From the NCBI RefSeq assembly GCF_023487995.1, contig NZ_JAMFKN010000014.1, positions 1 to 50,672 of the forward strand: a DNA stretch of 50,672 bases, written 5' to 3'. How positions within the stretch are numbered: position 1 is the first letter of the stretch; every line of letters begins with the position of its first letter. The translations under genes and the position numbers were made by a program. This DNA is from Thermohalobaculum sediminis. GTDB lineage: Bacteria > Pseudomonadota > Alphaproteobacteria > Rhodobacterales > Rhodobacteraceae. Under the pieces are notes generated by a model. The model was not told the DNA's origin, searched no databases, and saw nothing but the letters and a program-made list of their open reading frames with translations. Positions 1,508-12,510 of the stretch are shown here, in pieces.

Positions 1508-1625
1508 ATTACACGCCGCTTAACCTGTGTTAGAAAATTGCGAAGCAACGCCGCCTCGGGCAGGAACCGATCCCCGTCCGACGGCAGGCGCATAGGGGAT
1601 GCGGAACTGTCTGGGAGGATTCGCG

Positions 1626-3569
<1,944 letters not shown>

Positions 3570-3791: not shown

Positions 3792-4052
3792 ATGAACGAC
3801 AAGGAATCTGGGCTCGCCTACTGGCGCAGCAACATCGCCTACGTGAAGGTCTCGCTCGTGATCTGGGCGCTGGTCTCGTTCGGATTTGGAATTCTGCTTC
3901 GGCCGATGCTCAGCGTAATCCCGGTCGGCGGGACGGATCTGGGCTTCTGGTTCGCCCAGCAGGGATCGATCCTGGTCTTTCTCGCGCTCATCTTCGTCTA
4001 CGCGACGATGATGAATACGCTCGATCGCAAGCACGGCGTCCACGAAGACTGA
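3792..4052 (+). CDS. DUF4212 small subunit of sodium/solute symporter
   Basis: An 86-residue inner-membrane protein with two hydrophobic segments (about residues 19-40 and 53-72) joined by a short loop with PVGGTD, matching the DUF4212 (small subunit, YjcH-like) family. Such proteins are encoded directly before an SSS-family transporter, as here, with a 16-base gap, and are thought to form part of the transporter complex. A purine-rich GGAGAGGAAA lies upstream of the ATG. Being separated from acs by about 220 bases, it may have its own promoter. Confidence 0.9.
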   Translation: MNDKESGLAYWRSNIAYVKVSLVIWALVSFGFGILLRPMLSVIPVGGTDLGFWFAQQGSILVFLALIFVYATMMNTLDRKHGVHED

Positions 4053-4068: not shown

Positions 4069-5856
4069 ATGGACCAGCAAACACTCAACTTCATCTTCGT
4101 GGGCGCGACCTTCGCGCTCTACATCGGCATCGCCTTCTGGGCGCGGGCCGCGACGACGGGGGAGTTCTATGCCGCAGGCCGGGGCGTGCACCCGATCACG
4201 AACGGCATGGCGACGGCCGCCGACTGGATGTCGGCCGCGTCCTTCATCTCGATGGCGGGACTGATCGCCTTCGTGGGCTACGACAACTCGTCGTTCCTGA
4301 TGGGCTGGACCGGCGGCTACGTGCTGCTGGCGATGCTGCTTGCGCCTTACCTGCGCAAGTTCGGCAAGTACACCGTGCCCGAATTCGTCGGTGACCGCTT
4401 CTACTCGACGACGGCGCGCATGGTGGCGGTGATCTGCCTCATCGTCGCGTCGGTGACCTATGTCATCGGGCAGATGACCGGCGTCGGCGTGACCTTCGCC
4501 CGCTTCCTCGAGGTGGACAGCGCAACCGGCCTCTACATCGGCGCGGTCGTCGTGTTCTTCTACGCGGTGCTCGGCGGCATGAAGGGCATCACCTACACGC
4601 AGGTGGCGCAGTATGTCGTGCTGATCACGGCCTACACGATCCCGGCGATCTTCATCTCGCTCGAGCTCACCGGAAACTTCCTGCCGCAGATGGGCCTGTT
4701 CGGCACGCATCAGGCCTCGGGCACGCCGCTGCTCGTCCGGCTCGACCAGGTGCTGGCCGATATCGGCTTCGCCAGCTACACCGGCCATCACACCAACACC
4801 CTGAACATGGTCCTGTTCACGCTGTCGCTGATGATCGGCACGGCGGGCCTGCCGCACGTGATCGTGCGCTTCTTCACCGTGCCCAAGGTCGCGGATGCGC
4901 GCTGGTCGGCCGGCTGGGCGCTGGTGTTCATCGCGCTGCTCTACACCGTCGCTCCGGCGGTGGGTGCCATGGCGCGGCTCAACATCGTCGACACGATCTA
5001 TCCGAACGGCGTGCAGGGCGAGTCGCTGTCGTACGAAGACATGAAGTCCAAGCCCGAATACGCGTGGATGGTGAACTGGGAGAAGACCGGCCTCTTGAAG
5101 TTCGAGGACAAGAACGGCGACGGCAAGATCCAGTATTACAACGAGAAGAGCGACAAGATGACGGCGCTGGCGGCCGAGAAGGGCTGGCAGGGCAACGAAC
5201 TGGTCAAGTTCGACCGTGACATCCTTGTTCTGGCGAACCCGGAAATCGCGAACCTGCCGGGCTGGGTCATCGCCATCGTCGCGGCCGGTGGCCTCGCGGC
5301 GGCGCTCTCGACGGCGGCGGGCCTTCTGCTCGCGATCTCGTCGGCGATCAGCCACGACCTGATCAAGGGCGCGATCAATCCGAACATCTCGGAGAAGGGC
5401 GAGCTTCTGGCCGCGCGCATCTCGATGGCGGTGGCCATCGCCGTCGCGACCTGGCTGGGCCTCAATCCTCCGGGATTCGCGGCGCAGACCGTGGCGCTCG
5501 CCTTCGGTATCGCTGCGGCCTCGATCTTCCCCGCGCTGATGATGGGCATCTTCTCGACGCGCATCAACAATTCGGGTGCGATCGCGGGCATGCTGTCGGG
5601 CCTGATCTTCACGGTGGTGTACATCTTCATCTTCAAGGGCTGGTTCTTTATCCCCGGCACCAACTGGCTGCCCGACACCGCCGACAACTGGCTGTTCGGC
5701 ATCTCGCCGCTGTCGATCGGCTCGGTCGGTGCGGGCATCAACTTCCTGGTCGCCTACTTCGTCAGCCGCGCGACGGCCGACGTGCCCGAGGAGATCAGGG
5801 AGCTGGTCGAGAGCATCCGCATCCCGCGCGGTGCGGGCCAGGCGACCGACCACTGA
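4069..5856 (+). CDS. SSS-family sodium:solute symporter, large subunit
   Basis: A 595-residue polytopic membrane protein (about 13 helices) of the solute:sodium symporter family, in the ActP-like branch that pairs with DUF4212 proteins. The N-terminal GEFYAAGRGVHPITNGMA and DWMSAASFISMAG motifs are typical. Substrate is probably acetate or another short monocarboxylate because of the adjoining acs; this is inference from context. Between helices near residues 330-385 lies a charged extramembrane loop that includes DKNGDGKIQYYN (347-358), a close match to an EF-hand calcium loop. The start ATG follows a GGGGGG ribosome site. Two strong hairpins follow the stop codon. Confidence 0.92.
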   Translation: MDQQTLNFIFVGATFALYIGIAFWARAATTGEFYAAGRGVHPITNGMATAADWMSAASFISMAGLIAFVGYDNSSFLMGWTGGYVLLAMLLAPYLRKFGKYTVPEFVGDRFYSTTARMVAVICLIVASVTYVIGQMTGVGVTFARFLEVDSATGLYIGAVVVFFYAVLGGMKGITYTQVAQYVVLITAYTIPAIFISLELTGNFLPQMGLFGTHQASGTPLLVRLDQVLADIGFASYTGHHTNTLNMVLFTLSLMIGTAGLPHVIVRFFTVPKVADARWSAGWALVFIALLYTVAPAVGAMARLNIVDTIYPNGVQGESLSYEDMKSKPEYAWMVNWEKTGLLKFEDKNGDGKIQYYNEKSDKMTALAAEKGWQGNELVKFDRDILVLANPEIANLPGWVIAIVAAGGLAAALSTAAGLLLAISSAISHDLIKGAINPNISEKGELLAARISMAVAIAVATWLGLNPPGFAAQTVALAFGIAAASIFPALMMGIFSTRINNSGAIAGMLSGLIFTVVYIFIFKGWFFIPGTNWLPDTADNWLFGISPLSIGSVGAGINFLVAYFVSRATADVPEEIRELVESIRIPRGAGQATDH

Positions 5857-5967: not shown

Positions 5968-7812
5968 ATGTCCTTCACACAGGAACGGATCGAGCGGTTT
6001 CTGGCGGCCCACCACCCTTTCGATGCGCTCTCGGCCGATCTGATCGCCGATTGCGCGCGGGCGGCAACGCAGCGCACGGTCACCGCGGGCGAGACGATCT
6101 ATGCCGCGGGCGACACGCTCCCCGGTCTCTTCCTCGTGCTGCGCGGCGCCGTCGAACTCACCACACCTGACGGGACCGCGATTTCGGTCCGCCACACCGG
6201 CGAGATCTTCGCCCGGCGCGGCCTCACGGGCGACGGCACCGCGCCGGACACCGCGAAGGCGCGCGAGCACTGCGACCTCCTGATCCTGCCCGTCGCGGAT
6301 TTCCGCCGGATGCTCGACGCCTCGGACCAGTTCCGCGCCTTCTTCGAGCGCATCCGCGTGCGCGTGGCGGCCGCGCGAAACGGCCGTGGCGACGGCGAGC
6401 TCACCACCCTTCCCGTCCGCGCGCTGATGACGGCGCAGCCGGTCACGGTGCCGTCCGGCACGGCGGTGCGCGACGCCGCCCGGGTCATGTCCGAACGTCA
6501 CATCTCCTGCGTCCTCGTGGCCGAGCCGGAGGGCGCGCTCGAGGGGATCCTCACGACGGGCGACCTCACAGGGCGCGTCCTCGCTCGCGGTCTGCCGCCC
6601 GAGACGCCAGTGCGCGAGGTCATGACGCGCACGCCCCTCAACCTCTCGCCCGATGCGCTCGGCTTCGACGCATTCCTGACCATGGCCGAGCGCCATATCG
6701 GCCACCTTCCGGTGACCGAGGACGGCCGTCCCGTCGGGATCATCACGCGGACCAACCTGGTGAACCGCCAGACCGTCTCGTCGATCTACATGGTGAGCGA
6801 GATCGCCCGCGCCGAAACCGTGGGGCGGCTGGCCGAGACCGTGGGCGCGATCCCGCAGCTTCTTGCGCAACTTGTCGGCGGCGGGGCCGAGCCGCATGTG
6901 GTGACGCGCCTGGTCACCGATGTGGGCGACGCGGTGACGCGGCGGCTTCTGGTGATGGCCGAGCGCGAGCTTGGCCCGGCGCCCCGCCCGTGGCTGTGGC
7001 TTGCCTGCGGCAGCCAGGGTCGGCGCGAGCAGACCGGCGTCTCGGACCAGGACAACTGCCTCATCCTCGACGACGCGGCGACCGAGGCCGACGATGACTA
7101 TTTCGCGGCCTTCGCAAAATTCGTTTCGGACGGGCTCGACGCCTGCGGCTATTACTACTGCCCCGGCGAGATGATGGCGACCAATCCGCGATGGCGCCAG
7201 CCGGTGCGGGTCTGGCGGCAGTATTTCGACGGGTGGATCCGCAAGCCCGACCCGATGGCACAGATGCTGGCCTCGGTCATGTTCGACCTGCGGCCGATCG
7301 CGGGGACGCGCGCGCTGTTCGACGGGCTGCAGGCCGAGACGCTGGCGCGCGCGCGGGCGAACTCGATCTTCGTCGCGCACATGATCTCGAACTCGCTCAA
7401 GCACACGCCGCCGCTCGGGCTGTTCCGCGGCTTCGCCCTGATCCGGTCGGGCGAGCACAAGGACACCGTCGATCTCAAGCTCAACGGTGTCGTGCCGGTC
7501 GTCGATCTCGGCCGCATCTACGCGCTGATCGGCGCGCTCGAGCCGGTCAACACGCGCGAGCGCCTGATCGCGGCGCGCGAGGCCGGGGTGCTTTCGGACT
7601 CCGGGGCGCACGACCTCCTGGATGCCTACGATCTGATCGCGGGCATCCGCCTCGAGCATCAGGCGCGGCAGGTGCGCGAGGGCCGCAAGCCCGACAACTT
7701 CATGGCGCCCGCGACGCTCTCCGAGCTCGAGCGCGGGCATCTCAAGGATGCCTTCATGGTGATCAAGACGATGCAGTCGGCGCTTGCCCACAGCCGCGGC
7801 GCGCCGGGCTGA
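5968..7812 (+). CDS. cNMP-binding/CBS/DUF294 nucleotidyltransferase-like protein
   Basis: A 614-residue cytoplasmic protein with four parts: a cyclic-nucleotide-binding-like beta-barrel (about 1-130), a CBS pair (about 145-265), a DUF294 nucleotidyltransferase-like domain, and a helical DUF294 C-terminal domain (about 450-600). The nucleotidyltransferase signature is intact: GSQGRREQ from residue 348 and SDQD with aspartates D360 and D362. This architecture resembles GlnD-like regulators and suggests that adenine nucleotide or cNMP sensing controls a nucleotidyl transfer to an unknown partner. DUF294 proteins are recurrently found next to ActP-type symporters in proteobacteria. The ribosome site is weak, and two hairpins precede it, so expression may be partly independent of the transporter. 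Confidence 0.9.
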   Translation: MSFTQERIERFLAAHHPFDALSADLIADCARAATQRTVTAGETIYAAGDTLPGLFLVLRGAVELTTPDGTAISVRHTGEIFARRGLTGDGTAPDTAKAREHCDLLILPVADFRRMLDASDQFRAFFERIRVRVAAARNGRGDGELTTLPVRALMTAQPVTVPSGTAVRDAARVMSERHISCVLVAEPEGALEGILTTGDLTGRVLARGLPPETPVREVMTRTPLNLSPDALGFDAFLTMAERHIGHLPVTEDGRPVGIITRTNLVNRQTVSSIYMVSEIARAETVGRLAETVGAIPQLLAQLVGGGAEPHVVTRLVTDVGDAVTRRLLVMAERELGPAPRPWLWLACGSQGRREQTGVSDQDNCLILDDAATEADDDYFAAFAKFVSDGLDACGYYYCPGEMMATNPRWRQPVRVWRQYFDGWIRKPDPMAQMLASVMFDLRPIAGTRALFDGLQAETLARARANSIFVAHMISNSLKHTPPLGLFRGFALIRSGEHKDTVDLKLNGVVPVVDLGRIYALIGALEPVNTRERLIAAREAGVLSDSGAHDLLDAYDLIAGIRLEHQARQVREGRKPDNFMAPATLSELERGHLKDAFMVIKTMQSALAHSRGAPG

Positions 7813-7843
7813 AAGGCACGGGTCGGTCGGGACAGGGAACGGG

Positions 7844-8368
7844 ATGCTCTACACTCTCCTCGGTGCGGTATCGGTCTCGGCGGTGTCGGCGCTGCTGGTC
7901 TTTCTTGTCCGGCGGCATTTCTGGCACGGCATGCCGCGCTGGATCATGCCGGCGACGGCGGGCCTCGCGATGATCGGCTTCTCGATCTGGAACAGCTACG
8001 CCTGGTATGGCCGCATCACCTCGCATCTGGCGGATGGCGTGGTGGTCGCCGCGACCTTCCCCACGCGCAGCCCGATCGAGCCCTGGACCTACATGTTCCC
8101 GCGCGTGCAGCACTTCATCGCGGTCAACATGGCCGGCCGCGCGCGGCTCGCGGACCGGCCGGACCTCGTCGTCGCCGAGGTCATCGAGTTCCAGCAGTTC
8201 CGCAACGTCGTCCGGACCGTCCATCTCTTCGATTGCCGCGGCCGCCGGATGGGCCGGCTCCCGGCCGAGGAGCCGCGTTTCGACGATGCGGGCGATATCA
8301 CCGGGATCGACTGGGCCGCGCCTTCGGCCGGCGCGCCGCTGGTCGCCACCGTCTGCGGCAGCGTCTGA
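7844..8368 (+). CDS. Membrane-anchored protein of unknown function
   Basis: A 174-residue protein; I choose the ATG at 7844 because it follows AGGGAACGGG, while the upstream in-frame extension overlaps the DUF294 gene. Two hydrophobic segments (about 5-24 and 33-50) are followed by a soluble domain of about 120 residues rich in aromatic and charged residues, containing WNSYAWYGR near the membrane boundary and a single FDCRGRRMG motif. I do not recognise the family. Position between the DUF294 gene and the receiver gene, all on the same strand with gaps of about 30 bases, suggests it belongs to the same signalling unit. It could be a periplasmic or cytoplasmic-face sensor or an accessory of the symporter. 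Confidence 0.8.
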   Translation: MLYTLLGAVSVSAVSALLVFLVRRHFWHGMPRWIMPATAGLAMIGFSIWNSYAWYGRITSHLADGVVVAATFPTRSPIEPWTYMFPRVQHFIAVNMAGRARLADRPDLVVAEVIEFQQFRNVVRTVHLFDCRGRRMGRLPAEEPRFDDAGDITGIDWAAPSAGAPLVATVCGSV

Positions 8369-8402
8369 GGGAAGGGCTCGCACGGCGAGAGGAGACAGCA
8401 CC

Positions 8403-8807
8403 ATGGCCCGCAGCGTTCTGATCGTCGAGGACCAGGACAGCATGGCGCTGGTGCTCGAGCATCTGGTCCGCCGCGAGGGTTGCGAGCCCGGTGTCGCGCG
8501 CGACTGCGCCACCGCGCTCGAGGCGATCGCCGCCGCGGCCCCCGACCTCGTGCTGATCGATGCCGACATCGAGGAACGCTCGGGCCTCGATCTCTGCCAG
8601 CGGCTGCGCGCCGATCCCGGCCTCGTGGGGCTCAGGGTCCTCGTGATCAGCGCGCGTTGCGCCCGTCTCGATGTCGAGCGCGCCTTCGCGCTGGGTGCGG
8701 ACGCGTTCCTGCCGAAGCCCTTCGCCATCTCGGACCTCGGTGCCACGCTGCGCGCGCTGCTCGAGCCCGATGCGCCGCCGCAGGCCCCGGAGGCACGCCA
8801 TGGCTGA
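8403..8807 (+). CDS. Stand-alone response-regulator receiver protein
   Basis: A 134-residue single-domain CheY-like receiver. The acidic pair (E9, D10), the phosphoacceptor D53 in LVLIDAD, the conserved serine in VISAR and the lysine in FLPKPF are all present, so phosphorylation should be possible. There is no output domain, so it must act by protein contact. The gene overlaps the start of the next one by 8 bases (ATGGCTGA), which implies translational coupling to the sensor-exonuclease. The phosphodonor is not obvious, because the neighbouring sensor lacks the kinase histidine. Confidence 0.92.
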   Translation: MARSVLIVEDQDSMALVLEHLVRREGCEPGVARDCATALEAIAAAAPDLVLIDADIEERSGLDLCQRLRADPGLVGLRVLVISARCARLDVERAFALGADAFLPKPFAISDLGATLRALLEPDAPPQAPEARHG

Positions 8808-10926
8808 GCGCGAGCGGCTGGGCCTGCGGCTCAGGATCTTCCTGTTCTTCGCGCTCATCGTCTGCCTCTCGGCGGTCGCGATCGGCGCCGGCACCTGGGC
8901 CGCGGCCGTGCGGCTCGGGCCCGAGGCGCTGCCGCATCTCGTGCTGACCGGCGGCAGCGCCTGGTTCGTGATCGCGCTCGCGGCGCTGCTGATCTGGCAG
9001 AAGTTCGACGAGAACGTCGCCCGCCCCATCGTCGCGCTGAGCCACGAACTCGAGCGCGAGAGCACGGCGACCGCCGCCCGAGCCGGAGTGAACACCGCGC
9101 CCGCGCGCTATCTCGGCGCGCTGGGCCCGGCCATCGAGCGCGCGACCGGCGCGCTGAGCGAGGAGCGGGCCGCGACCGCGGCGCGGATCGCGGCCGCGAC
9201 GCGCGAGGCCGAAACCGCGAAGGCCCGACTGGAGAGCGTCCTGAGCGAGCTCAAGCAGGCCGTCATCATCTGCAACCGTGAGCATCTCATCCTGCTCTAC
9301 AACACCGAGGCCGTGCGCCTGCTGGGCGTGCCCGAGACGGTGGGCCTTGGCCGCCCGCTCTCGACCCTGATGCGCGACGAGCCGATCCGGCACGCGCTCG
9401 AACGGGTCGAGGCGCGCTACCGTGCCGGCCGGCATCTCGCCCATCCAGACGGGCTCTCGATCGCCGTTCTGACCACCACGGCTACGGGCGAGCGGACTCT
9501 GGCGGGCCGGCTCGGGCTCATCGTGGACGGCACCGGCGGCGAGGTGTCGGGCTTTGCCATCTCGCTTGGCGACGTGACGCAGCAGATCGAGGCGGCGAGC
9601 GCGCGCGACCGGCTGATCTGGGACATGATCGACACCCTGACGCCACCGCTCGCGGCCCTCGCGGCAATGGGCGAGATCCTCGTCGCGCCGGGCGCCCCGG
9701 AGGGCGAGGCGCGCGCGGCCTTCGACGCCGCGGTCGCGGCCGAGAGCCACCGCGCTGCCGAGGCGATCGCCACGATGGCCGAGCGCCATGCGGGCCTGCG
9801 CAGCGGCGTCTGGCCGATGGAGGACACCTATTCGCCGACGCTATTTGCCTGCGTCGTCGGCCGCCTGCCGATGTCGCTGCAGGGCCGCGTGCGCGTCGAG
9901 GGCGAGGGCCTCTGGCTGCATGCGGAAACCTACAGCATCGTCGAGCTGCTCGCGCATGTGCTCAAGCGCCTGATGCCCGGCACCGGCGCGGTCGCGCTCG
10001 CCGCCGAGCGGCGCGGCGGCAATGTCGCGGTCGATCTTCTGTGGGGGGGCGAGCCCGTGAGCCTCGCGACGCTCGAAGCCTGGCTCGCCGAGCCGCTCGA
10101 CCACGCGCTCGGCCACCTCACCGGGCGCGACGTGCTGGCGCGTCACCGTACCGGCTTCCTGCCCAACCGCGCGCCTGACGGGCGCGTGCGGCTGCGGCTG
10201 CCGCTGCGCGCGCCGATCCACGACCATGAGGGCGCGCCGGCCATGCCGCTGCCAAGGCGGCCCGAGTTCTACGACTTCGACCTGATGAACCGGGCGCTGC
10301 CCGCCGATCTTGCCGGTCAGGACCTGCGCCATCTGAGCTACGTCGTGTTCGACACCGAGACGACCGGCCTCAACCCCTCGCAGGGCGACCGGATCGTCCA
10401 GATCGCGGGGGTGCGGATCGTCAATGGCCGCCTCCTGCGAGGCGAGGTGTTCGACGAGCTGGTCAACCCGGGGCGGCCGATCCCGGCGGCCTCGACCCGG
10501 ATCCATCACATCACCGATGCCATGGTCGCGAATCGGCCGCCGGTCGAGCCGGTTCTGCGCCGGTTCCACGCCTTCGCCAGGGGCGCTGTGCTGATCGCTC
10601 ACAACGCGGCCTTCGACATGCGCTTCCTCGGGCTGCGGCAGGCCGAGGCCGGGGTTCGGTTCGACCACCCCGTGCTGGATACCGTCCTTCTTTCGGCGCT
10701 GATCAGCGACCCGACGGCCGAGCATACGCTCGATGCGCTTGCCGAACGCTTCGGCGTGACGCTGCTGCCCGAGGAGCGGCACACGGCGCTGGGCGATTCG
10801 ATCGCGACGGCGATGGTCTTCCTGCGGATGCTGGATCTTCTGGCCGCGCGCGGCATCCGCACGCTGGCCGAGGCGCAGGAGGCCTCGGACACCATGGTCG
10901 CGCTGAGGCGCCGGCAGAGCTATTGA
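8800..10926 (+). CDS. Membrane PAS sensor fused to DEDDh 3'-5' exonuclease
   Basis: A 708-residue fusion. Two membrane helices (about 11-35 and 45-68) are followed by an HAMP/coiled-coil stretch (to about 142), a PAS domain (about 143-255), a DHp-like segment and a degenerate ATPase-like region (about 330-440). Where kinases have SHELRTPL this protein has DTLTPPL, so the phosphoacceptor histidine is replaced by D278, and clear N and G boxes are missing. The C-terminal third is an intact DnaQ-like exonuclease: D518 and E520 in FDTETTGL, D606 in HNAAFDMRF, H661 and D666 in HTALGD. Exonucleases next to ActP-type genes are known from other proteobacteria, but their role is unclear. Likely substrates are nucleic acid or small oligonucleotide signals; the latter is inference. 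Confidence 0.93.
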   Translation: MAERERLGLRLRIFLFFALIVCLSAVAIGAGTWAAAVRLGPEALPHLVLTGGSAWFVIALAALLIWQKFDENVARPIVALSHELERESTATAARAGVNTAPARYLGALGPAIERATGALSEERAATAARIAAATREAETAKARLESVLSELKQAVIICNREHLILLYNTEAVRLLGVPETVGLGRPLSTLMRDEPIRHALERVEARYRAGRHLAHPDGLSIAVLTTTATGERTLAGRLGLIVDGTGGEVSGFAISLGDVTQQIEAASARDRLIWDMIDTLTPPLAALAAMGEILVAPGAPEGEARAAFDAAVAAESHRAAEAIATMAERHAGLRSGVWPMEDTYSPTLFACVVGRLPMSLQGRVRVEGEGLWLHAETYSIVELLAHVLKRLMPGTGAVALAAERRGGNVAVDLLWGGEPVSLATLEAWLAEPLDHALGHLTGRDVLARHRTGFLPNRAPDGRVRLRLPLRAPIHDHEGAPAMPLPRRPEFYDFDLMNRALPADLAGQDLRHLSYVVFDTETTGLNPSQGDRIVQIAGVRIVNGRLLRGEVFDELVNPGRPIPAASTRIHHITDAMVANRPPVEPVLRRFHAFARGAVLIAHNAAFDMRFLGLRQAEAGVRFDHPVLDTVLLSALISDPTAEHTLDALAERFGVTLLPEERHTALGDSIATAMVFLRMLDLLAARGIRTLAEAQEASDTMVALRRRQSY

Positions 10927-10935
10927 GCGCGCGGC

Positions 10936-11589
10936 TCAGCGCATCGGGTCGAGCGTCACGCTCGGCGCGCCGCAGTCGCGCGCCGAGCGGCCGAGGCAGG
11001 CGCGTGGCGAAAGGTCGGGATCGAGACAGATCCGCACCTCGCGGAAGCGCCCGTCGCGGCAGGTCACCGTGACCATGTCTGGCGTGAGGCCCGGATTGGC
11101 CTCGATGAAGGCCGCCTCGATCACCTTCGGGTCTATGCTCACCCGGCGCCCCAGGCGCCGCAGGGCTTCGGGGCGCGCGACCTGCTCCCAGGCCCGGCGC
11201 GACAGCGCGAAGTACTCGGTGGGCTCGAGCCCGGTGCAGCGCCCGTGCTTGCGCCACTGATGCCAGGCGAGTCCGGCCGAGCCCATGATGTCCGCCATCG
11301 CCGCCGTCTCGTGCCGCGCGGGATCGCGTGCGGTGCCGCGACAGAATTCGGGCCAGCCCTCGCCCTGCTGGGGCCAGAGCCCGTGCAGGGTGAAGCCGAT
11401 CTCCTCGCGCGGGTCACACTGGGGCGCGCCGCGCGCATCCCCCTCGGCCGCGCACCAGCCGGCGTTCCACGACAGGGCCAGCACGTAGTGGTCGAACGCG
11501 CCCGCCCGGTCCTGCGCCGCGACCCGCCCGCAGGTCAGACCCGCGACCGCCGACAGCGCCAGGATCAGGCCGCCAATCCGTCCACGCAT
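10936..11589 (-). CDS. Ribonuclease T2 family, secreted
   Basis: A 217-residue protein with an N-terminal signal peptide (about 1-25, ending near RVAAQ). Both active-site segments of the T2 family are present: FTLHGLWPQ and HQWRKHGRC, which carry the catalytic histidines. Several cysteines support disulfide-stabilised periplasmic or extracellular location. It should cut single-stranded RNA through a 2',3'-cyclic intermediate, probably for nutrient scavenging. It converges with the sensor-exonuclease gene with only 9 bases between the stops. The start chosen gives a proper signal peptide; the longer open frame upstream is antisense to trcR. Confidence 0.93.
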   Translation of the reverse strand: MRGRIGGLILALSAVAGLTCGRVAAQDRAGAFDHYVLALSWNAGWCAAEGDARGAPQCDPREEIGFTLHGLWPQQGEGWPEFCRGTARDPARHETAAMADIMGSAGLAWHQWRKHGRCTGLEPTEYFALSRRAWEQVARPEALRRLGRRVSIDPKVIEAAFIEANPGLTPDMVTVTCRDGRFREVRICLDPDLSPRACLGRSARDCGAPSVTLDPMR

Positions 11590-11751
11590 CGCCCGATACC
11601 GCTTTATTTTCGCCTCTGCGGCGACTATATAGCGCCCTTGGAATTTCCTCGAAACCGTCAGACGCGCCCCCGCGCCCGGTTCTCGGAGCGCCGGCGGAGC
11701 CGTTTTCCGAAGGCCCGTTCCGACGGCGAGAGACCAGAAGGAGAGAGACCC

Positions 11752-12510
11752 ATGTCCGACCTGCCGCTGATGCCCAAGGCGACCGCCGTCTGGCTCGTCG
11801 ACAATACGACGCTGACTTTCCGCCAGATCGCCGACTTCTGCGGGATGCACGAGCTCGAGGTGGCGGGCATCGCGGACGGCGAAGTGGCGCAGGGTATCAA
11901 GGGGTTCGACCCCGTCGCCAACCACCAGCTCACCGCCGAGGAGATCGCCCGCTGTGAAGCCGACCCGATCGCCCGGCTGCGGATGGTGAGGCGCGAGATC
12001 GCGCCCCCCGTGAAGCGCAAGGGGCCGCGCTACACCCCTGTCTCGAAGCGCCAGGACCGCCCGGCGGCGATCGCCTGGCTGGTGCGCTATCACCCCGAGC
12101 TCGAGGACAGTCAGATCGGCAAGCTGATCGGCACCACCAAGCCGACGATCCAGTCGATCCGCGACAAGTCCCATTGGAACTATGCCAACCTCCAGCCCGT
12201 CGATCCCGTGGCGCTGGGCCTCTGCCGGCAGACCGAGCTCGACGAGGCGGTGAAGAAGGCCGCCGAGAAGCGCGCGAAGTCGAAGGAGCACGTGCCCTCG
12301 GCCGAGGAGCGCATGAGCCTCATGTCGACCGACGAGTCGCTGGGCGCGCCCGAGGAACCGGCGCTGCCCTCGGCCGTGCGGGGCTTCGAGAACTTCAGCC
12401 TCGACGATCCCCGCGGCCCCCAGGAGGACGAGGACGACAGCGGCTATGGCGGCAATGTCGACCCCGACTCGCTCTTCAACCTGCCGCGCCGGGGCAAGGA
12501 CGAGGACTGA
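11752..12510 (+). CDS. trcR: DUF1013 cell-cycle regulator TrcR
   Basis: A 252-residue protein of the DUF1013 family, called TrcR in alphaproteobacteria. The N-terminal half is a conserved helix-turn-helix-like region (LTFRQIADFCGMHELEV, then GIKGFDPVANHQLT), and a second HTH-like stretch occurs at DSQIGKLIGTTKPTIQSI. The C-terminal 60 residues are acidic and probably disordered, ending in LPRRGKDED. AAGGAG precedes the ATG. It is divergent from the RNase T2 gene, with about 160 bases between them containing an AT-rich patch near 11600-11650 that may hold promoters. The family is nearly restricted to alphaproteobacteria. Confidence 0.9.
   Translation: MSDLPLMPKATAVWLVDNTTLTFRQIADFCGMHELEVAGIADGEVAQGIKGFDPVANHQLTAEEIARCEADPIARLRMVRREIAPPVKRKGPRYTPVSKRQDRPAAIAWLVRYHPELEDSQIGKLIGTTKPTIQSIRDKSHWNYANLQPVDPVALGLCRQTELDEAVKKAAEKRAKSKEHVPSAEERMSLMSTDESLGAPEEPALPSAVRGFENFSLDDPRGPQEDEDDSGYGGNVDPDSLFNLPRRGKDED

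Follow-up and report, generated by a model that had tools for sequence, protein, structure and literature searches.

We analysed a stretch of 50,672 nucleotides from Thermohalobaculum sediminis (hereafter the window, meaning that whole stretch). The genome measures 4.3 Mb, and the window is the beginning of its contig 5. At positions 5968 to 10926, behind an acetyl-CoA synthetase gene (acs) and a sodium/solute symporter, it carries a block of four genes encoding a DUF294-type protein, a membrane protein with two transmembrane (TM) helices, a stand-alone receiver and an exonuclease. This block is a conserved operon type, and a chance neighbourhood is excluded. Judged from its structural model and sequence, the exonuclease holds a complete but dead histidine-kinase core, the hairpin of which is kept or lost together with the receiver. 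We propose that the block may be a phosphorelay-controlled nucleotidylation switch acting on the use of small monocarboxylates such as acetate and pyruvate, a reading to which we assign a probability of about 0.4.

The neighbourhood was compared at increasing phylogenetic distance. Among 17 regions around the exonuclease gene in relatives, 12 have the order DUF4212-SSF-DUF294-membrane protein-(receiver)-exonuclease, and in 11 of these acs or its end lies in the region as well. A second set, referred to below as the named loci, comprises the best 80 of 504 confirmed hits from a scan with the DUF294 alignment and is biased to close kin. It contains the two-TM gene in 80/80, the symporter in 78, an exonuclease label in 75 and the same label order in 77, the deviating loci being L152, L170 and L193. 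A receiver is present in 37 of the 80, including that of L178 (98.7 bits, where the cut-off used was 100), and an acs label in 48, contig ends cutting many of these loci. The preliminary description had read the four genes as a signalling block that goes with the symporter and had allowed that the neighbourhood might lack conservation; the relatives' regions and the 80 named loci bear out the former, and across the genomes surveyed the neighbourhood is conserved. L170 itself lies on a contig labelled Cytophagaceae (Bacteroidota), has a Rhodobacterales-like operon with the exonuclease and membrane protein swapped, and is possibly wrongly binned.

The analysis of 190 alphaproteobacterial genomes yielded 39 strong DUF294 genes in 36 genomes. 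Within 8 kb, 33 of these genes have an exonuclease of the window type and 23 a symporter of the VC_2705 family, and in 6 of the 39 the DUF294 and exonuclease matches share one reading frame. Strong DUF294 occurs in 27/43 genomes with a VC_2705-family symporter vs 9/147 without. DUF294_C was found in 109 of 299 sampled Pseudomonadota genomes; the pairing counts there rest on the DUF294_C and exonuclease matches listed, among which 129 of 150 DUF294_C matches lie within 8 kb of an exonuclease match, 88 of them within 1 kb. Forty DUF294_C regions, picked among these genomes' matches and not drawn at random, contain an exonuclease match in 37 cases (absent in L052, L080 and L084). Two fusions, L042 and L103, combine RNase_T, two CBS domains, DUF294 and DUF294_C in a single protein, as checked with Pfam. 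Because the pairing spans the Pseudomonadota and fusions occur, DUF294 and the exonuclease are the deep core of the block, and the symporter is a frequent third partner. In the genome of L052 (G458; the locus is similar to the L116 group described below), the exonuclease lies about 14 kb away with a receiver of its own (L217). The locus L071 has a 1101-residue frame (L071:4685-7987) with a DUF294 match at its end, which overlaps the symporter frame; no match to the small subunit or the membrane protein was found at that locus.

The exonuclease gene (8800..10926, + strand) encodes a protein of 708 residues, for which the architecture TM-PAS-pseudokinase-DEDDh nuclease is predicted and which is the proposed "eraser" of the block. 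Pfam gives only RNase_T (E value 6e-34) and a PAS match below the cut-off; no kinase-core match was obtained with it in the window protein. The structural model (mean pLDDT 86) begins with two long helices, after which come a PAS-like part, a hairpin of two helices (residues 260-295 and 303-334), an ATPase-like domain and the nuclease. Searched with Foldseek, it matches a WalK model entry (E value 5.8e-16) and 4i5s (E value 2.5e-12), the further histidine-kinase entries ThkA-TrrA and HK853-RR468, and the kinase-like proteins DivL (4q20, E value 4e-8) and NifL; the nuclease part matches PolC and epsilon (DnaQ). The TM-scores are low over the whole chain because single parts match. An hhalign comparison with the catalytic part of SLC5-type kinases gave a probability of 97.3 (E value 1.7e-11) over 204 columns. 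According to the model and hhalign, the DHp-like hairpin (residues ~260-334; 9577..9801, + strand) carries Asp278 in place of the phospho-His, and in 50 hairpin rows this position holds D in 25, E in 21, and I, S, A or T in one row each, with no His. The ATP site of the window protein is lost as well, since hhalign sets ELLAHV opposite the N-box NLLSNA and a Trp opposite the G1-box Asp. In ten further long exonucleases of other families no phospho-His was seen by eye, the placement being unsure for L219, L220 and L221. As far as model and alignments can tell, the protein holds a complete but dead histidine-kinase core, made of a DHp hairpin and an ATPase-like fold, and by sequence it is not a member of the histidine kinases.

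The nuclease domain (10345..10923, + strand), in contrast to the kinase core, is predicted to be active. Its catalytic residues Asp518, Glu520, Asp606, His661 and Asp666 are invariant in 36 aligned rows, and in homologues the corresponding counts are D 149/149, E 149/149, D 134 or E 15 of 149, H 148/148 and D 147/148. The complete catalytic set suggests a DEDDh (DnaQ-like) exonuclease, and the nearest solved structures by sequence are the PolC and epsilon exonucleases. The alignments of the exonuclease, the membrane protein and the receiver (36, 39 and 32 rows) take in part of the named loci.

The receiver (8403..8807, + strand; 134 residues; PF00072, E value 6e-21) has no output domain. In the alignment of the window sequence with 31 of the 37 named-locus receivers, the phospho-acceptor Asp53 is present in 32/32 and Lys105 in 31/32 sequences, in agreement with the intact phosphosite noted in the preliminary description. 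That description had also stated that no histidine kinase is present, which holds for an intact one within the block and fails in two respects: the exonuclease holds a degenerate kinase, and the genome encodes one of the SLC5 type on another contig. The presence of the receiver was compared with that of the hairpin in 101 exonuclease rows, i.e., 22 rows from other relatives, 74 of the 80 named loci and 6 class-level loci, minus L143, which is on the same contig as L028. The named loci left out were L116, L125, L139 and L142 (no exonuclease label), L115 (contig end) and L133 (split frame). Receiver and hairpin are both present in 50 rows and both absent in 50, with one exception (L090). In three loci (L034, L067 and L070) the hairpin is cut and the ATPase-like part retained. 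The two states agree in all 89 rows of a symporter tree, from which 13 rows without a usable symporter, L090 among them, were excluded. With the long branches L088 and L193 taken out, a careful tree supports six independent pairs, all six in the same direction (p 0.031). As the TM and PAS segments separate the receiver gene from the hairpin, two deletions are needed for a joint loss. Since receiver and hairpin are kept or lost together, the receiver probably docks on the hairpin. The receiver of Mangrovicoccus (L178:4891-5256) has kept the phospho-Asp and lost the conserved Lys (SLPF for KPF) next to an exonuclease with its hairpin kept, and is perhaps a relay caught in decay.

The DUF294 protein (5968..7812, + strand), the proposed "writer", comprises by Pfam a cNMP-like domain, two CBS domains, the DUF294 nucleotidyltransferase and DUF294_C. 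Its GS...D.D catalytic motif is kept in the homologue rows (G, S and R in 157/157, the two Asp in 156/157 each). The DUF294 profile (PF03445) matches both GlnE proteins scanned, with 33.2 and 26.2 bits at a cut-off of 21, and DUF294_C (PF10335) matches one of the two. DUF294 is predicted from these matches to be a relative of the GlnE adenylyltransferase and a protein nucleotidyltransferase. The phosphate-binding cassette of cyclic-nucleotide domains has a Glu and Arg motif. At these sites the window protein reads FARR (commonly FGER) and PDTA (usually PRTA), so that both Glu and Arg are lost, and a cyclic nucleotide is therefore an unlikely input of the window block. In most homologues the Glu is kept (92 rows) and Thr prevails at the Arg position (91 rows); a minority may keep the Arg. 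Nucleotidylation by the DUF294 family was predicted earlier, as stated in part of PMC5715377, which cites Aravind and Koonin (1999).

A candidate phosphodonor came from clusters of a related kind. Among 17 receiver-bearing exonuclease clusters that have no two-TM gene in the stretch, 15 contain an SLC5-type histidine kinase, which does not always adjoin the receiver. These are 8/8 clusters of a first set (L037, L071, L085, L086, L087, L088, L089 and L090, the kinase of L086 being partial at a contig end) and 7/9 of a second (L212, L213, L214, L218, L219 with two frames, L220 and L221). L216 and L217 have a receiver and no kinase in the stretch, and a tenth locus, L215, is without a clear receiver. 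Within the kinase-bearing clusters, L037 and L090 lack the hairpin. All nine SLC5-type kinases aligned have an intact H-box and an intact ATP site. In the genome of the window a kinase is encoded on contig 21; it is assigned to the SLC5 type because of full-length orthology with the L087 kinase (47% identity, residues 7-896). HisKA and HATPase exceed the Pfam cut-off in it and in six relatives scanned. The SSF domain (PF00474) scores over the cut-off in L090 and L102 but under it in L089, and it is unmatched in the kinase of the window genome, in which Pfam also finds no PAS or receiver. Within L113:6226-11204 this kinase adjoins a gene whose product has a ScfRs domain (short-chain fatty acyl-CoA regulator) over the cut-off and a likeness to RamB below the cut-off, which is another link of the SLC5 kinase to acyl/acetate metabolism. 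For the phosphorylation of the receiver, the neighbourhood of the SLC5 kinase is a better lead than acetyl phosphate as sole phosphodonor.

The proposed switch would operate as follows. The SLC5-type kinase encoded elsewhere in the genome would phosphorylate the stand-alone receiver, which would dock on the dead kinase core of the membrane-anchored PAS protein and set the activity of its DEDDh domain, in the manner of DivK, which docks on DivL. A target protein would receive a nucleotide from the DUF294 protein and lose it again through the action of the DEDDh domain, and the CBS domains of the DUF294 protein may read AMP/ATP, AMP being a product of Acs. The target would probably be an uptake protein, with the symporter as first candidate, and the mark would inactivate it. 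That a GlnE-related nucleotidyltransferase is paired, and at times fused, with an enzyme that cuts phosphodiesters suggests a writer and an eraser. The DnaQ epsilon subunit cleaves pNP-TMP, an aryl ester of a 5'-nucleoside monophosphate, so that removal of a nucleotide from protein by a DEDDh domain is chemically reasonable. More specifically, the exonuclease may have been turned into a protein de-nucleotidylase of DUF294 marks, set by the phosphorylated receiver on the dead kinase of the same chain, a step that we regard as conceivable but doubtful. We know of no precedent for a DEDDh-type nucleotidylation eraser. In the open-licence literature, searched by title and the start of the abstract, nothing was found on a dead-kinase exonuclease, on DUF294 paired with an exonuclease or on DUF4212, an absence that is weak evidence.

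Published data from Pseudomonas bear on this proposal. According to the available part of PMC9927547, deletion of the P. putida exonuclease gene pp_0353 impaired growth on pyruvate, as did deletion of actP-I, and deletion of the DUF294 gene pp_0354 caused no pyruvate defect. With a mark that inactivates uptake, a mutant lacking the eraser should resemble one lacking the transporter, and a mutant lacking the writer should show no defect; the writer/eraser proposal would thus explain these single-mutant phenotypes. The same part of that report mentions transposon data of others in which actP-I and pp_0353 matter at 5 mM acetate, so that a tie to acetate at low concentration is possible. The P. 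putida DUF294 homologue is induced on acetate, and its exact function was called unexplored (PMC8402216, available part). The preliminary description had suggested a circuit controlling acetate use; control of acs expression by the block is unsupported.

A number of observations weigh against the proposed switch. In genomes that have the symporter but no strong DUF294, the 14 loci examined (14 of 16 such genomes were covered) carry the symporter and the small subunit with no module, from which the core looks like a regulatory addition. When transporter proteins linked to the module were compared with those free of it, no Tyr, Ser or Thr of symporter or small subunit told the two groups apart. 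This comparison, made in search of a target site, returned only Lys100 and Glu79 as differing positions, and no target site emerged. Among the matches listed, 21 of 150 DUF294_C matches are without a listed exonuclease within 8 kb. The exception L090, which lies outside the clade and is not in the tree, has a receiver without a hairpin, and a quick tree with all 89 rows leaves only four supported pairs (4/4, p 0.125). None of the 80 named loci, which are of the window operon type, contains the SLC5 kinase, yet 22/22 genomes tested have it, with or without a receiver; it therefore has other partners too, and a loss of the kinase along with the receiver is ruled out. The P. putida exonuclease is bare, and the pp_0353 and pp_0354 deletions were normal on 20 mM acetate, their phenotypes being reported on pyruvate (PMC9927547, in the part available). 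Going by the available parts of the respective reports, a DUF294 mutant of P. fluorescens was without phenotype (PMC5715377), and a strain with PA3234 deleted showed normal growth on propionate (PMC9765439). The P. fluorescens result fits the writer/eraser view but proves nothing.

Other explanations of the same genes have to be weighed. The exonuclease might shorten RNAs, for instance the transporter or acs transcripts, with DUF294 tailing or tagging RNA, so that mRNA levels would be tuned. The DEDDh enzymes RNase T and Orn do act on RNA, and mRNA decay is what the P. putida authors suggest for their exonuclease (PMC9927547, available part). This is nonetheless unlikely, as the one named relative of DUF294 that was found, GlnE, modifies protein, an RNA-binding domain is absent from both window proteins (Pfam, E 0.1), and a phenotype for the loss of the exonuclease but not of DUF294, as given in the available part of PMC9927547, needs an extra assumption. 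The preliminary description had raised the idea of a small nucleotide that the exonuclease degrades; in such a reading DUF294 would make the signal, and the CBS domains or the symporter would sense it. Small DEDDh nucleases are able to cut dinucleotides, and CBS domains bind adenosyl ligands (PMC8402216, available part). Against a small nucleotide stand the resemblance of DUF294 to protein adenylyltransferases and the lack of Glu and Arg in the cNMP domain of the window protein, an argument that is weaker outside the window clade, where the Glu is mostly kept; on balance we consider it rather improbable.

The receiver, phosphorylated by acetyl phosphate or by the SLC5 kinase, might also serve another partner, its shared loss with the hairpin reflecting replacement of the whole operon. 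The two acetate kinase matches in the genome of the window and the SLC5 kinase in receiver-less genomes would agree with this, but the TM and PAS segments precede the hairpin and could not be spared by a single deletion that removes hairpin and receiver, and the receiver and exonuclease genes overlap by 8 bases in the window, so that we hold another partner to be similarly improbable. That the exonuclease is a DNA-processing enzyme unlinked to transport, its neighbourhood being inherited passively, is highly improbable. PolC and epsilon, its nearest relatives of solved structure, would suggest as much; the pairing with DUF294 across the Pseudomonadota and the fusions speak against it, as do the phenotype that the P. 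putida exonuclease shares with actP-I and the report that no role in DNA consumption was found for it (PMC9927547, available part). The nucleotidylation switch remains the reading that we prefer.

The two-TM membrane protein (7844..8368, + strand; 174 residues) has no Pfam match. Its model (pLDDT 93.6) shows two helices of membrane-spanning length and a beta domain; no PDB match to the fold of the protein was found at E 0.001 (best E value 0.11), and loop charge places the beta domain probably in the periplasm. A Cys pair (C131/C171) is invariant in 39 aligned rows; C131 is missing in L049, which lies outside the class and has no receiver. The family is an orphan tied to DUF4212-SSF symporters, and it follows DUF294 or the symporter even without a receiver or exonuclease (L049, L052, L116, L125, L139 and L142). 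It looks like a symporter accessory, apart from the nucleotide chemistry. In L116, L125, L139 and L142, DUF294 and the membrane protein occur with no exonuclease label within ~10 kb.

The front gene of the conserved cluster is acs (1620..3569, + strand; TIGR02188, 1038 bits, over the cut-off). It is followed by the DUF4212 symporter small subunit (3792..4052, + strand; PF13937, E value 7e-31; TIGR03647 over the cut-off) and the SSF symporter (4069..5856, + strand; TIGR03648, 822 bits at a cut-off of 321). With the ActP profile TIGR02711 the symporter scores 134.8 bits at a cut-off of 1099, and it belongs to the VC_2705 family and is not ActP proper; acetate or pyruvate as its substrate is suggested solely by the neighbouring acs. 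Open reading frames, sequence and profile searches place all seven genes from acs to the exonuclease on the + strand, and they confirm the gene set and order given in the preliminary description. The junctions, described there as tight or overlapping, are so inside the block (31 bases between DUF294 and the membrane protein, 34 between the membrane protein and the receiver, and the receiver/exonuclease overlap) and less so at its front, where 111 bases separate the symporter from DUF294. A promoter scan of the block found no sigma-70-like site. A terminator scan gave 5 terminator-like sites vs a mean of 2.4 in shuffles, with none in the gaps between block genes, the nearest (7877-7899) being within the two-TM gene. 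Downstream, a convergent open reading frame (10936-12291, - strand) has a Ribonuclease_T2 domain (42.9 bits vs a Pfam cut-off of 26).

The closest described systems are the Pseudomonas pairs. The P. putida pair pp_0354-pp_0353 and the P. aeruginosa pair PA3233-PA3232, which are targets of CrbS/R (= MxtR/ErdR), likewise consist of a CBS protein with cNMP and nucleotidyltransferase domains and an RNase_T exonuclease, the P. aeruginosa pair lying near actP; their reported regulation is transcriptional, via the CrbR homologue (PMC9927547, available part). The domains described for the P. fluorescens homologue are those of the same kind of DUF294-type protein (PMC5715377, available part). Three of our loci (L057, L058 and L059) have the P. 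putida-like arrangement, with the pair beside malate synthase G. Their exonuclease frame is of ~253 residues and has no exoN match; unlike the window, these loci have no pseudokinase and no receiver. The transporter in this type of arrangement is presumably actP with yjcH, of the DUF485 type.

With regard to the kinase, CrbS, CbrA and RpuS are SLC5 kinases with SSF, HisKA and HATPase parts, as are the cluster kinases. In the available part of PMC9100948 this family is linked to acetate or pyruvate use, and the partners of CrbS and RpuS, CrbR and RpuR, are LuxR-family regulators, whereas the receiver of the block has no output domain. The dead kinase core finds a likeness in the DivL/DivK system of Caulobacter, DivL (4q20) being among the fold matches. 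DivL is a kinase-fold protein without the phospho-His that is read by a single-domain receiver and acts on the kinase CckA. The exonuclease of the window is also a phospho-His-less kinase fold, but it is fused to a nuclease and its family has mostly Asp or Glu at the site, and not Tyr. For the nucleotide chemistry, DUF294 matches the GlnE nucleotidyltransferase, and the proposed coupling of writer and eraser would be as in GlnD. In GlnD the erasing is done by an HD domain and in GlnE by a second nucleotidyltransferase; the proposed eraser of the block is a DEDDh exonuclease, which, if the proposal is true, would bring a third type of chemistry to the removal of nucleotidyl marks. The arrangement names candidate partners, i.e., kinase, receiver, dead kinase, writer and eraser, and would represent two-component signalling that ends in the cyclic covalent modification of a transporter. 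By analogy, the proposed block would work like a GlnD/GlnE cycle joined to a relay of the DivL/DivK type.

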